From NCBI RefSeq assembly GCF_947495705.1, contig NZ_CANLZR010000004.1:248001-312000 (forward strand): a stretch of 64,000 bases of DNA, written 5' to 3'. The position numbers were made by a program, and so were the translations under genes. Shown here one piece after another: positions 10,354 to 15,028 of the stretch. The stretch comes from an uncultured Phycicoccus sp. Lineage in GTDB: Bacteria > Actinomycetota > Actinomycetes > Actinomycetales > Dermatophilaceae. The notes under the pieces are model-generated. The model made no database searches, was not told where the DNA came from, and saw nothing but the letters and a program-made list of their open reading frames with translations. Each line of letters starts with the position of its first letter. Position 1 is the first letter of the stretch.

Positions 10354-10854
10354 ATGGCCGACCAATCCGCGGCCTCGTCAGCCTTGCTTCAGAGCCGCTC
10401 GTGGAGAACCCGGCACAGTGCTTGGCTGCTAGCCGTGATACTTGGCTTCGGGTTCGTCTCGTTCGTCGGCTTCTTGTACTGCGCGCTTCGGGTTCGGTCT
10501 AGGAAGTGGTGGTTCCGGGCAGGCGTCACCTTCGCTGTGACGGTGCCCGGCTGGCTTGTTGTGAGCGTGTTCGAGTCGACTGAAGAACAGCGCGGCGACA
10601 TGCTTCGAGTCGTTCCCGAGGACTACCTGATCATCCTCTGGATCGTGCTGACCGGATACGGACTAGTCGTGAACCGCGACTACCTCAGGTGGCGCGCGGC
10701 ACTGCAGGCAGGTCAGCACGGCAGTTCGCGTCCCGCTGCTCCCCAGGGTGCTGGATTGGCCCCGCCACCTGTCGGCCGGGTCGATGCACCGCCAGTTGGT
10801 CCGCCGCCTTCGACGCCACCGTTTGATCCGGGCGGCCGTGTCATCGACCTCTAG
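10354..10854 (+). CDS. island membrane protein A with GGRVIDL tail
   Basis: The 166-aa protein has three predicted transmembrane segments: SAWLLAVILGFGFVSFVGFL, a second around residues 58-73 and a third near YLIILWIVLTGYGLVV. The motif NRDYLRWRA follows, then a Pro/Gly-rich cytosolic tail ending PGGRVIDL. It is a clear paralogue of the protein at 13510-14403: both share the W-R-x-RHSAWLLA, SFVGF and LNRDYLRWRA-type motifs and the C-terminal tail. The ATG at 10354 is preceded by GAGAGGGGC. It opens the Ycf46-type operon, separated from the ATPase gene by 316 bp. I do not recognise a named family. Confidence 0.75.
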   Translation: MADQSAASSALLQSRSWRTRHSAWLLAVILGFGFVSFVGFLYCALRVRSRKWWFRAGVTFAVTVPGWLVVSVFESTEEQRGDMLRVVPEDYLIILWIVLTGYGLVVNRDYLRWRAALQAGQHGSSRPAAPQGAGLAPPPVGRVDAPPVGPPPSTPPFDPGGRVIDL

Positions 10855-11170
10855 TGTTGCGCCCGGTCCCCGGAACCAAACCGGGCATTGACTCGTCCTA
10901 CGGCGCCAAGGTCGGGTCGAGGGGGCAGGAGGTCGGCTGGATGCCGCACTCACCTGGCTGCGCGTGCAACGACGGGAATGTCGGCAGGTGCCATACAATG
11001 ACGCGAATTGGGCCTTGCACACGAATGCCCGGTGGGATGCGGATGCGCCGCGGAGCGGCCGAACTACACAAGCAGACGGACTTGGCCATGGGTGGGACGC
11101 GGAGCAGGCATCATGGGCGGTGCCCAGCCGGCAGTTCGCCGGACAGCCAGGTCGGTGGAGGAGATCCTTG
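10855..11170 (+). other. spacer between membrane protein A and ATPase genes
   Basis: A small hairpin (GCCCGGT...ACCGGGC, about 10861-10886) follows the first gene and may attenuate or terminate transcription. TACAAT at 10994-10999 resembles a -10 element, but I find no good -35 at the right distance. A strong GGAGGAG-type ribosome-binding sequence precedes the ATPase ATG. No gene is supported here, though the ATPase frame stays open upstream to 10964. Confidence 0.35.
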
Positions 11171-12871
11171 ATGGCCCCACATGCCCAGATGTCGTTTCAG
11201 GACAACCTGGCGCAGTTGCTGAGGGCCAGGTTCCCTGTGCTCTACATCGAGTCCTTCGAGGAAGCTCGGGTGCTGGGTGAGATCAATGCCGTCGCCTCCA
11301 ACGTCGAGCTATCGCGAACTGTGCGCCCGGTCCACGTTTGGAGTGTCACGCGCGGTTTCACGGAGCCCGGCGGATCCGCTGCAGCCGGAACCGTCGAGCC
11401 CGCTCAGGCGCTGGACTGGGTGCTCCGCAACGATCAGCCTGGCGTGTTCATCTTCGTAGACCTGCACGCCCACCTGGGGGATGACCGGCGTCCCGCCGAC
11501 CCGAACGTGTTGCGCCGACTGAGGGAGGTCGCACACGCTTTCCAGTCGGGCCCGGCACCTCGAACCCTGATCATCCTCGCGCCGCTGCTGCGAATTCCGC
11601 CGGAACTCGAGAAGGACATCACGCTTCTCGACTTCCCACTTCCGACCGAGGCGGAGATCCGAACCGTCCTGGACCAGATGATCGACGCCAACACCGCTAA
11701 CAACTCGCGCTTGCGTATCGAAGTCGACAACATCGGCCGTGAGCGGCTTGCGAAGGCCGCCCTTGGCCTGACCCTGAATGAGGCTTCAAATGCGTTCGCG
11801 CGAGCCATGGTGAACGACGGCGTTCTGTCCGACGACGACGTCCACGTCGTGATGGAGGAGAAAAAGCAGACGGTTCGCAAGGGAGGGATTCTCGAGTTCG
11901 TCGACGCGGACGTGGACCTCGATGCCGTTGGCGGCCTCCAGAATCTGAAGAGGTGGCTGGCGAAGCGCAACAACTCATGGCTCGACGAGGCAGCCGCCTA
12001 CGGGATCCCGGCCCCAAAGGGGGTCCTGATGACCGGAGTGCCGGGCTGTGGCAAGTCTTTGACCGCCAAGGCGATCGCGGCGGGATGGGAGCTCCCGCTG
12101 CTCCGACTCGACGTCGGCAAGGTCTTTGCAGGTGTGGTCGGTTCGAGCGAGCAGAACATGCGCTCCGCAATCAGGACGGCTGAGGCCGCCTCGCCCTGCA
12201 TCTTGTGGCTCGATGAGATCGAGAAGGGGTTCTCCGGAATCGGAGGTTCTGGGGACTCCGGAACCTCGACGCGGGTTTTCGGGTCGTTCCTGACGTGGAT
12301 GCAGGAGAAGACCGCCACCGTCTTCGTCATCGCCACAGCAAACAAGGTGGACGGACTTCCGCCCGAGTTTCTGCGCAAGGGGCGCTTCGACGAGATCTTC
12401 TTCGTGGACCTACCCACGGACCCCGAGCGACGCGACATCTGGCGACTCCATCTCAACAAGAAGCTGGCCAGGTCGCAGGCCGGAGGGCTTCCTGTCACCG
12501 AGGCCCTGCTCTTCCAGCTTTCGGACGTCACCGAAGGATTCGCCGGAGCGGAGATCGAGCAGTTGGTTGTCGCGGGGATGTTCGATGCATTCTCGGAGCG
12601 TCGCGCGGTCACGTACGAGGACCTGATCCGGGCTGTCCGCAACATGGTTCCCCTCAGCCAGACCCAGGCTGAACAGATTGCTGCCGTTCGTGCGTGGGCG
12701 GCAGACCGCGCCGTTGCGGCGACTGCCCCGGAGGACATGTCGGGGTACACGACAGCAGTTCCGACACCCGCAGGGCGCCCGAGTCCGGGAGGCACGCAGA
12801 GCGACGGGCACATCTCGCCGCCGCTGCCCGCGGAGGGGCTGTCTAGGGGCGGCAGGATGGTCGACTTCTGA
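11171..12871 (+). CDS. Ycf46-type AAA+ ATPase
   Basis: The 566-aa product has an N-terminal Ycf46-type domain (FQDNLAQLLRARFPVLYIES, then W-S-V-T-RG and VFIFVDLHAHLGD). Its AAA+ module has Walker A GVPGCGKSL (residues 289-297), Walker B ILWLDEIEK (344-352), sensor-1 IATAN and the arginine-finger segment LRKGRFDEIFFVDLPTD. The C-terminal lid contains GFAGAEIEQLV. Ycf46 proteins are cyanobacterial/plastid ATPases with relatives across bacteria and poorly known substrates. A disordered tail ends SRGGRMVDF, matching the tails of two membrane proteins in the operon. The start at 11171 is chosen because GGAGGAG lies about 8 bp upstream and the next residues match the family. The stop overlaps the next start (TGATG). 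Confidence 0.9.
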   Translation: MAPHAQMSFQDNLAQLLRARFPVLYIESFEEARVLGEINAVASNVELSRTVRPVHVWSVTRGFTEPGGSAAAGTVEPAQALDWVLRNDQPGVFIFVDLHAHLGDDRRPADPNVLRRLREVAHAFQSGPAPRTLIILAPLLRIPPELEKDITLLDFPLPTEAEIRTVLDQMIDANTANNSRLRIEVDNIGRERLAKAALGLTLNEASNAFARAMVNDGVLSDDDVHVVMEEKKQTVRKGGILEFVDADVDLDAVGGLQNLKRWLAKRNNSWLDEAAAYGIPAPKGVLMTGVPGCGKSLTAKAIAAGWELPLLRLDVGKVFAGVVGSSEQNMRSAIRTAEAASPCILWLDEIEKGFSGIGGSGDSGTSTRVFGSFLTWMQEKTATVFVIATANKVDGLPPEFLRKGRFDEIFFVDLPTDPERRDIWRLHLNKKLARSQAGGLPVTEALLFQLSDVTEGFAGAEIEQLVVAGMFDAFSERRAVTYEDLIRAVRNMVPLSQTQAEQIAAVRAWAADRAVAATAPEDMSGYTTAVPTPAGRPSPGGTQSDGHISPPLPAEGLSRGGRMVDF

Positions 12872-14403: not shown

Positions 14404-14407
14404 CGTC

Positions 14408-15028
14408 GTGATCCGAGTCGCAGATGTCGTCCCCACGACAACTGCCGAAGGCCCCGGGCGGCGCTATGCAATCTGGGTCCAAGGCTGCACGATCCGCTGT
14501 GATGGCTGCTTCAACCCGCACATGTGGTCCAAGACCGGCGGCGCCCTTAGATCCGTGGGTGAGCTGTTGGCACGGATCGAGGCGGTCGATGTCGAAGGGA
14601 TTACCCTGCTCGGCGGCGAGCCATTCGAACAAGGGCATGCGCTGAGTGTTCTGGGCGAGGCAGTTCAACGGCGAGGACTCTCGGTCATGACGTTCACCGG
14701 ATACGACTACGACCACCTAACTGGTAGAGATGCACCCGACGAAGCCCAGGCACTGCTCGGCGCTACCGACCTGCTGGTGACCGGGCCCTACGTCGCGGAA
14801 AGCCCGGACTTGGTTCGCCCATGGGTGGGGTCGACCAACCAGGAGTTCCACTTCCTCACCGAGCGCTACGGCCATCTCCAGGAGCATCTCGTCGACCTGC
14901 GAGACCGCGTTGAAGTCCGGGTTGCGCCCGATGGCGCAGTGGCAGTGAACGGCTGGGCAGGTGTCGCTCAGCTCGACGATCTCCTGGAAGACCTGGGCCG
15001 ACCAGTCGGTCGGGGGCGAGTTCGGTAG
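14408..15028 (+). CDS. radical SAM / 4Fe-4S single-cluster protein (activase-like)
   Basis: The 206-aa protein from the GTG at 14408 (a TTG at 14393 is an alternative overlapping the upstream stop) resembles NrdG-type activating enzymes. IWVQGCTIRCDGCFNPHMW carries the CxxxCxxC cluster motif (Cys27, Cys31, Cys34), followed by LLGGEPFEQG, TGYDY and LVTGPYV. Such short radical-SAM proteins generate a glycyl radical or modify a partner. No anaerobic ribonucleotide reductase or other glycyl-radical enzyme is encoded in the window. Its coupling to the Ycf46/DUF1257/DUF2997 genes therefore suggests its target lies within this operon. That is inference. Confidence 0.85.
   Translation: MIRVADVVPTTTAEGPGRRYAIWVQGCTIRCDGCFNPHMWSKTGGALRSVGELLARIEAVDVEGITLLGGEPFEQGHALSVLGEAVQRRGLSVMTFTGYDYDHLTGRDAPDEAQALLGATDLLVTGPYVAESPDLVRPWVGSTNQEFHFLTERYGHLQEHLVDLRDRVEVRVAPDGAVAVNGWAGVAQLDDLLEDLGRPVGRGRVR

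Follow-up and report, generated by a model that had tools for sequence, protein, structure and literature searches.

A shared C-terminal tail suggests how the parts of a mobile Ycf46-type ATPase and radical-SAM module find each other

A 64,000-nucleotide stretch of DNA from an uncultured Phycicoccus sp. (contig NZ_CANLZR010000004.1, positions 248,001 to 312,000), hereafter the window, carries on a genomic island an operon encoding, in this order, a membrane paralogue, a Ycf46-type AAA+ ATPase, a DUF1257-type protein, a DUF2997 protein, a helix-hairpin-helix (HhH) membrane protein and a radical-SAM protein. The module formed by these genes is real, conserved, widespread and mobile, and occurs in several phyla, both in chromosomes and on plasmids. 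The ATPase and both membrane proteins of the window end in a common tail with the consensus R-x-[ILV]-[DE]-hydrophobic-COOH. This shared C-terminal tail is a new finding, absent from an earlier note on this DNA; it is the strongest clue to how the parts of the module work together and suggests how they find each other. Cyanobacteria and algal plastids conserve Ycf46, Ycf35 and DUF2997, for which we know of no general mechanism. The earlier note had described six open reading frames (ORFs) and the tight packing of the last five, the core genes; ORF calling and Pfam bear out both descriptions. The six genes are as follows (PFL, pyruvate formate-lyase).

10354..10854, + strand: membrane paralogue, 166 aa; phmmer match to the HhH protein at E 2e-22; hydrophobic segment at residues 25-43; tail PGGRVIDL
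11171..12871, + strand: Ycf46-type tandem AAA+ ATPase, 566 aa; PF00004 at E 3e-29; tail RGGRMVDF
12871..13323, + strand: DUF1257 (Ycf35)-type protein, 150 aa, with a hydrophobic N-terminus; assigned by hhalign
13320..13529, + strand: DUF2997 protein, 69 aa, with cysteine C27; PF11211 at E 1e-15
13510..14403, + strand: HhH membrane protein; PF12836 (HHH_3) at E 8e-12; probable start, picked by eye; tail PGGRIIDI
14393 or 14408..15028, + strand: NrdG/PFL-activase-like radical-SAM protein; PF13353 at E 2e-28; CxxxCxxC motif

The five core genes abut or overlap, the ATPase stop sharing a TGATG with the start of the DUF1257-type gene, and 316 nt lie between the end of the membrane paralogue and the start of the ATPase. 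Comparable loci were drawn from a genome scan, which used the best 80 of 578 confirmed matches and therefore leans to close relatives of the window; plasmid and viral loci were added. Loci L001 and L003-L006 were removed from the locus counts, L011 and L014-L017 (duplicates of longer loci) and the window were left out of the tail counts, and six near-duplicate viral loci were removed from the ATPase tree, from the comparison of tails near the ATPase and elsewhere, and from the viral receptor count. An HhH protein was found in 38 loci besides the window. The tail, counted as [RK]-x-[ILVMF]-[DE]-hydrophobic-COOH, ends 48 of the 50 HhH proteins and 33 of the 38 ATPases in these loci, and is seen in none of 36 DUF1257 proteins, one of 34 DUF2997 proteins, none of 35 radical-SAM proteins and two of 425 other genes. 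Among the exceptions, the HhH protein of L052 has one residue past the motif, and that of L062 (683 aa) is perhaps a false HhH call; among the ATPases, that of L048 is cut by the contig end, those of L057 and L062 run one or two residues beyond the motif, and those of L029 and L059 have no tail. One of the two tail-bearing other genes encodes an Mrr-type restriction endonuclease (L047, 7809-8549), which lies on the same strand within the operon, 13 nt downstream of the gene for an HhH membrane protein that contains TPRs; in the second case, in L050, an opposite-strand ORF of 83 aa bears the tail.

Beside one module, seven HhH-family ORFs (one of 87 aa) stand in a row (L042, 3305-8347), and each of the seven bears a variant of the tail. 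The six paralogues longer than 200 aa are 18-21% identical over the first 160 of 253 alignment columns and 62% identical over the next 40, which correspond to the HhH domain. In the 3.5-Mb genome of the window, the DNA pattern G-[RS]-x-h-[DE]-h-stop occurs at six places, against one for a reversed-pattern control. Two of the six are not stops; the four true stops belong to the ATPase, the two membrane proteins and an ORF that we take to be aldolase-like. A glycyl-radical site in the tail was considered, but glycine is missing from many HhH tails, such as those ending in ERNIDL, and the idea was rejected.

All five core genes are found no more than 6 kb from the ATPase in 33 of the 38 loci, a recurrence that makes the five-gene set more than chance. 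By the earlier note's own criterion, its reading would have failed had the set been unlinked in homologous loci or had the membrane and radical-SAM genes been missing from them; with these 33 loci, the reading was not refuted. Of the incomplete five, L033 has no radical-SAM gene on its 6.9-kb contig, the ATPase lies no more than 63 nt from the contig end in L036 and L048, and DUF2997 is missing from L054 and L057. Gene content is steady among the loci and gene order is variable. A further locus in a genome of the same family (L200, outside the 38) also holds all five genes. In a midpoint-rooted FastTree phylogeny of 169 ATPases, all 39 module ATPases, the window included, form one clade free of outsiders (support 0.969). 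By record titles, the clade spans actinobacteria, Bacillota, Gastranaerophilales, Bacteroidota, a Sebaldella metagenome-assembled genome (MAG) and a Methanosphaera MAG contig, the phylum names being those we take to apply; the archaeal case is this single contig, which could be mis-binned. The module is on three plasmids, from Rhodococcus and Paenarthrobacter, and a Paenibacillus plasmid carries the ATPase, DUF1257, DUF2997 and radical-SAM genes, with no HhH protein recognised. On a Paenibacillus plasmid (L024, 8904-10244), two proteins after the radical-SAM protein end in RVIHF and RVIRL, near the tail and not matching it. On a Treponema succinifaciens plasmid (L021), radical-SAM and ATPase genes immediately precede that of a phage baseplate V protein.

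The ATPase has a sole P-loop, at residue 289, and none in residues 1-245: its first AAA-like domain is without a Walker A motif and its second is intact. The AlphaFold2 model (pLDDT, the model confidence score, 85; residues 526-566 below 50) shows a predicted tandem AAA+, p97-like fold, with the C-terminal tail modelled as the end of a disordered linker. Foldseek aligns the model along the double-AAA structures of p97, Rix7 and NVL over ~540-600 columns, with E values down to 3e-23 and TM-scores by query of 0.39-0.55 among the 50 matches listed. The DUF1257 label of the earlier note stands at the level of profiles and fails at the level of Pfam. The 150-aa protein has no Pfam match and does not reach the gathering score of PF06868, a family that a cyanobacterial DUF1257 member matches with 79.9 bits; an hhalign comparison of the alignment of its group with canonical DUF1257/Ycf35 gives a probability of 97.8 and E 9e-13. 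It is thus named DUF1257-type by profile-profile comparison only. Its AlphaFold2 model (pLDDT 87) found no related solved structure at E 1e-3, and searches of solved structures with the DUF1257 and DUF2997 profiles gave no match better than E 0.1. The DUF2997 protein matches PF11211 with 57.8 bits against a gathering score of 24.1, and its cysteine is invariant in 87 of 87 sequences, overlapping loci counted (75 within GxxGxxC, 12 read by eye).

The HhH membrane protein is laid out as three N-terminal hydrophobic segments, a linker, the HhH_3 domain, a second linker and the tail. A Kyte-Doolittle window found at least one hydrophobic segment in 48 of 52 HhH-family proteins, fragments included. 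The upstream membrane protein, which had been noted as a paralogue, resembles the N-terminal membrane part of the HhH protein and has no HhH domain, and the paralogy holds to that extent. The hairpin glycine is often replaced (GIN, GID), with G at the third hairpin position in eight of 49 HhH proteins by a rough count with a crude pattern; DNA binding is therefore uncertain, and the sequences make protein binding by this domain as likely as DNA binding. An xPH motif seemed conserved by eye, yet is present in 22 of 49 only. In the radical-SAM protein, Pfam finds Fer4_12 (PF13353) and a weaker Radical_SAM match. CxxxCxxC is present in 51 of 53 sequences, the window and overlapping loci included, the other two being viral loci with longer spacing; GGEP and GSxNQ are invariant in 37 sequences including that of the window. 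The best named matches are NrdG and PFL activase, with 87.8 bits to the NrdG family TIGR02491, under its cut-off of 126.1. No glycyl-radical enzyme is found among the named matches of the module and of the island proteins scanned. Prokaryotic viperin was tried as an identity for the radical-SAM protein and rejected (NF038283, 11.9 versus 180 bits).

Relatives outside the module clade carry the tail on other companions. In loci without an HhH protein, 10 of 709 genes near the ATPase (unnamed genes of at least 100 aa on the same strand within 3.7 kb) bear the tail, versus 4 of 1696 elsewhere (Fisher p 0.0014, uncorrected for kinship and with three of the ten in one locus). The carriers include DUF3150, phrog_11021 and YpsA-family proteins and members of further unnamed families. 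Viral DUF3150 proteins near a Ycf46-type ATPase end in the tail in L179 and L182, and one residue past it in L133. Seventeen further genomes had matches to the ATPase; around the eight Bacillota and Actinomycetota ATPases examined, HhH and DUF2997 were found in none, two of the contigs ending close by, while DUF1257 was found in two, a radical-SAM match about 7 kb away in one and the ATPase tail in none. The linked set claimed for homologous loci therefore holds for the module clade and not for these relatives. In a ninth genome (G034), only DUF1257 and DUF2997 stand beside the ATPase. Eight viral contigs (L160, L162, L107, L108, L110, L154, L007 and L008) have the ATPase, DUF1257, DUF2997 and radical-SAM genes in the fetched stretch; in L160 and L162, a protein of 349 and 411 aa, respectively, follows the radical-SAM protein and ends like the ATPase (DIEL and DIEF). 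SWIM-like zinc-finger proteins occur near ATPase, DUF1257 and DUF2997 genes in L002 (by Pfam match) and in L176 and L186 (by eye).

The best explanation, which we offer tentatively, is that the module is a mobile machine for AAA+ remodelling and modification, its partners being docked through the shared tail. The tail would be a short putative docking motif that joins the ATPase and the membrane proteins to one site, most likely a pocket on the ATPase ring itself, on a neighbouring subunit. We place the pocket there because the ATPase is present wherever the tail is found, in loci that were chosen by the ATPase, and because DUF1257 and DUF2997 were often not found beside tail-bearing viral ATPases. 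With tails that mimic the one on the ATPase, the membrane proteins would attach to the ring, and docking would either recruit the motor to the membrane or draw the membrane protein towards the motor; the N-terminal part, which has diverged, may serve as a variable input, and the HhH domain and tail as a constant adapter. The motor could then expose or remodel a polypeptide of the module. Proteins are the substrates of the named relatives of the radical-SAM protein, which would make a radical-dependent change on this polypeptide, the first candidate substrate being the DUF2997 protein with its invariant cysteine. More broadly, and with greater doubt, tail mimicry may be the way in which an AAA+ machine recruits partners (membrane proteins and, in some lineages, a nuclease, DUF3150, YpsA-family or phage-specific proteins), the radical-SAM enzyme joining one branch to make a mobile membrane modification system whose range takes in several bacterial phyla and perhaps an archaeon. 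If this reading of the tail is true, C-termini alone would be enough to search other genomes and phages for companions of Ycf46-type ATPases. Because the mobile module is compact, occurs in cultured organisms such as Paenarthrobacter, Microbacterium oleivorans and Dactylosporangium, and has both a defined motif in its tails and an invariant DUF2997 cysteine, the question of its partners is directly testable.

Several observations weigh against the docking and modification proposal. The motif has few residues, and loci that are related do not count as independent. The tail is less regular outside the clade, with an exact match in 34 of 138 ATPases from loci without an HhH protein; the cyanobacterial Ycf46 often ends in QRLEF or QRMEF, which was not scored as a match. 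Loci with the core and without a radical-SAM gene are common, and the DUF2997 cysteine is invariant there too. In its first form, the proposal had DUF1257 or DUF2997 as the receptor of the tail, a role now disfavoured and rejected because the exact viral tail occurs mostly where neither was found nearby: in viral loci it ends 22 of 37 ATPases with no DUF1257 or DUF2997 in the fetched stretch, versus 5 of 45 with one. The corresponding counts for cellular loci without an HhH protein are 2 of 15 and 3 of 35. Finally, a census of 94 neighbour genes of the module matched 17 PADLOC families at E 1e-30, a number equal to that for 94 control neighbours of Ycf46 loci. The test genes were kept from a random 148 of 231 candidates after some contig-edge and other genes were dropped, and the controls were a random 94 of 267; Actinomycetota loci were left out because of the many false ORFs at high GC. 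The defence or stress role raised in the earlier note gains nothing from this comparison.

An anti-phage or anti-plasmid defence at the membrane, in which the HhH proteins detect incoming nucleic acid or a protein of the phage, the tail links them to the ATPase and the radical-SAM step arms or feeds an effector, is nonetheless the rival with most in its favour, though we consider it unlikely. The module of the window shares its island with an operon of Z1, DUF4420 nuclease, GmrSD_N (DUF262), cytosine methylase and Vsr genes; the full module of the same-family genome (L200, 9911-18999) adjoins a PLD-domain protein and a helicase, which we take to be reminiscent of parts of DISARM; the module also occurs on the Rhodococcus and Paenarthrobacter plasmids; and the operon of L047 ends with the tail-bearing Mrr-type nuclease. 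The diverged N-termini of the HhH paralogues and the patchy distribution are also in keeping with defence, and a passage in PMC7159879 proposes that a radical-SAM domain in a conflict system modifies a peptide effector. Against it stand the census, the failure to recognise an effector in most loci, the occurrence of ATPase relatives in phages themselves and the frequent loss of the hairpin glycine, which leaves DNA binding by the HhH domain uncertain. Searched with PADLOC 2.0, the module's own proteins matched no whole system, only generic AAA domains and, weakly, viperin (best E 2.5e-4) and a type I specificity family (one match, E 0.011). A part for the module in conflicts between genetic elements, on the side of its mobile element or of the host, is weakly suggested by the island, by the plasmids, by the genes next to the module in the window and in the same-family relative, and by the Mrr case.

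The tail could also be a degron-like client tag, by which the ATPase pulls and threads tail-bearing membrane proteins, its own tail acting as a self-inhibitory pseudosubstrate. A disordered linker with the tail as the last residues of the protein would suit such a tag, as would the presence of the tail on unrelated companions in different lineages; we find this improbable, however, given that no protease was found among the module proteins and that the ATPase keeps the tail in 33 of 38 module loci, which is unusual for a client tag. Still lower in our estimation is a role in maturing a metallo- or glycyl-radical enzyme whose gene lies elsewhere, which would pair an NrdG-type activase with a MoxR-like chaperone ATPase. 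It agrees with the best named matches of the radical-SAM protein, with the service of MoxR/vWA ATPases in metal insertion described in a passage of PMC13036017 and with the position of DUF2997 and ycf35 next to the ferredoxin fed7 in cyanobacteria, as given in an excerpt of PMC4284462, but the module and island genes scanned have no glycyl-radical enzyme among their named matches, the NrdG score is far below its cut-off, and membrane HhH proteins with the ATPase's own tail are left unexplained. That the genes share the tail by coincidence, or because they descend from a common ancestor, is very hard to credit. The motif has only about five residues, and the aldolase-like ORF of the same genome has the same ending; yet the frequencies in HhH proteins and ATPases (48 of 50 and 33 of 38) far exceed the two of 425 other genes, and the carriers come from different families (AAA+, HhH, Mrr nuclease, DUF3150 and YpsA).

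The module has partial likenesses among known systems. The cyanobacterial and red-algal plastid Ycf46/Ycf35/DUF2997 set has an ATPase of the same family; all 26 of the cyanobacterial loci sampled include DUF1257, and the cyanobacterial ATPase tail resembles that of the module; DUF1257 and DUF2997 are linked to the ATPase in the window and in most module loci. In contrast, HhH, radical-SAM and DUF2997 genes are found in none of the 26 fetched cyanobacterial stretches. Like p97/Cdc48, Rix7, NVL and Pex1/Pex6, the module ATPase has two AAA domains, matched by Foldseek over most of the model, and the C-terminal tail of p97 binds cofactors; unlike these, its first AAA-like domain is without a P-loop, and its tail is common to membrane companions. 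MoxR-vWA systems also pair an AAA+ motor with dedicated adaptors, but no vWA match is found among the six module proteins; a further likeness is that some phage loci have a DUF3150 protein next to the ATPase, DUF3150 being linked to MoxR-type ATPases. IetAS (also printed IteA), an AAA ATPase with a subtilisin, is matched in the AAA domain at E 6e-20, yet the NF042959 score is 71.7 versus a cut-off of 510 bits and the six proteins include no protease. NrdG and PFL activase are likewise small radical-SAM proteins with CxxxCxxC and GSxNQ, the latter a likeness that we assume; the module protein differs in scoring under the NrdG cut-off and in having no glycyl-radical partner among the proteins scanned. 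Membership of the module in the viperin, IetAS or MoxR-vWA groups was rejected, with scores below cut-offs and partners not found.

Published work bears on the cyanobacterial and plastid relatives. An excerpt of PMC4284462 shows the cyanobacterial cluster DUF2997-ycf35-fed7, and a passage in PMC7496141, citing Jiang 2015, states that inactivation of Ycf46 lowers the activity of the carbonic anhydrase EcaB. Freshwater red algae have lost ycf35 and ycf46 according to a section of PMC5940233, which treats the ycf genes as of unknown function, and the text of PMC10954446 that was searched has Ycf46 once, as a superfamily label. By a term search, ycf46, ycf35, DUF1257 and DUF2997 are absent from PMC7159879. 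A description of the module was not found in the titles and beginnings of abstracts of the literature searched, a coverage that most subscription journals fall outside.

The earlier note had placed the linked set on a genomic island with a restriction-type operon, and the integrase, base composition, repeats and gene content agree with both statements. The island spans 19 kb, with an integrase, lower GC (~0.59-0.67 within, versus ~0.70-0.76 outside) and 24-nt direct repeats at the anticodon of a tRNA-Ala gene.

6014..6037, + strand: left direct repeat, candidate attachment (att) site, inside tRNA-Ala(tgc) at 5983-6057
8861..9835, - strand: tyrosine-type integrase of the island; PF00589 at E 1e-10, PF14659
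25048..25071, + strand: right direct repeat, candidate att site; 88% identical over 24 nt to the left repeat, the first 16 nt being identical

A comparable ATPase (E 1e-60) is present in none of 11 congeners and in one of 24 other genomes of the same family. As a probe for an empty insertion site, the right flank of the island (25100-26300) gives only short matches of moderate identity to the 11 congeners. The operon at 15645-24908, on the - strand, encodes a 314-aa protein, a DUF4420 protein with a PD-(D/E)XK domain, Z1 (MzaC-like), GmrSD_N/DUF262, a C5 cytosine methylase and a Vsr endonuclease; it is an MZA-like restriction set. The left arm (6404-8632) holds an ORF with a weak pentapeptide-repeat match on the + strand and a DUF2971 protein on the - strand.

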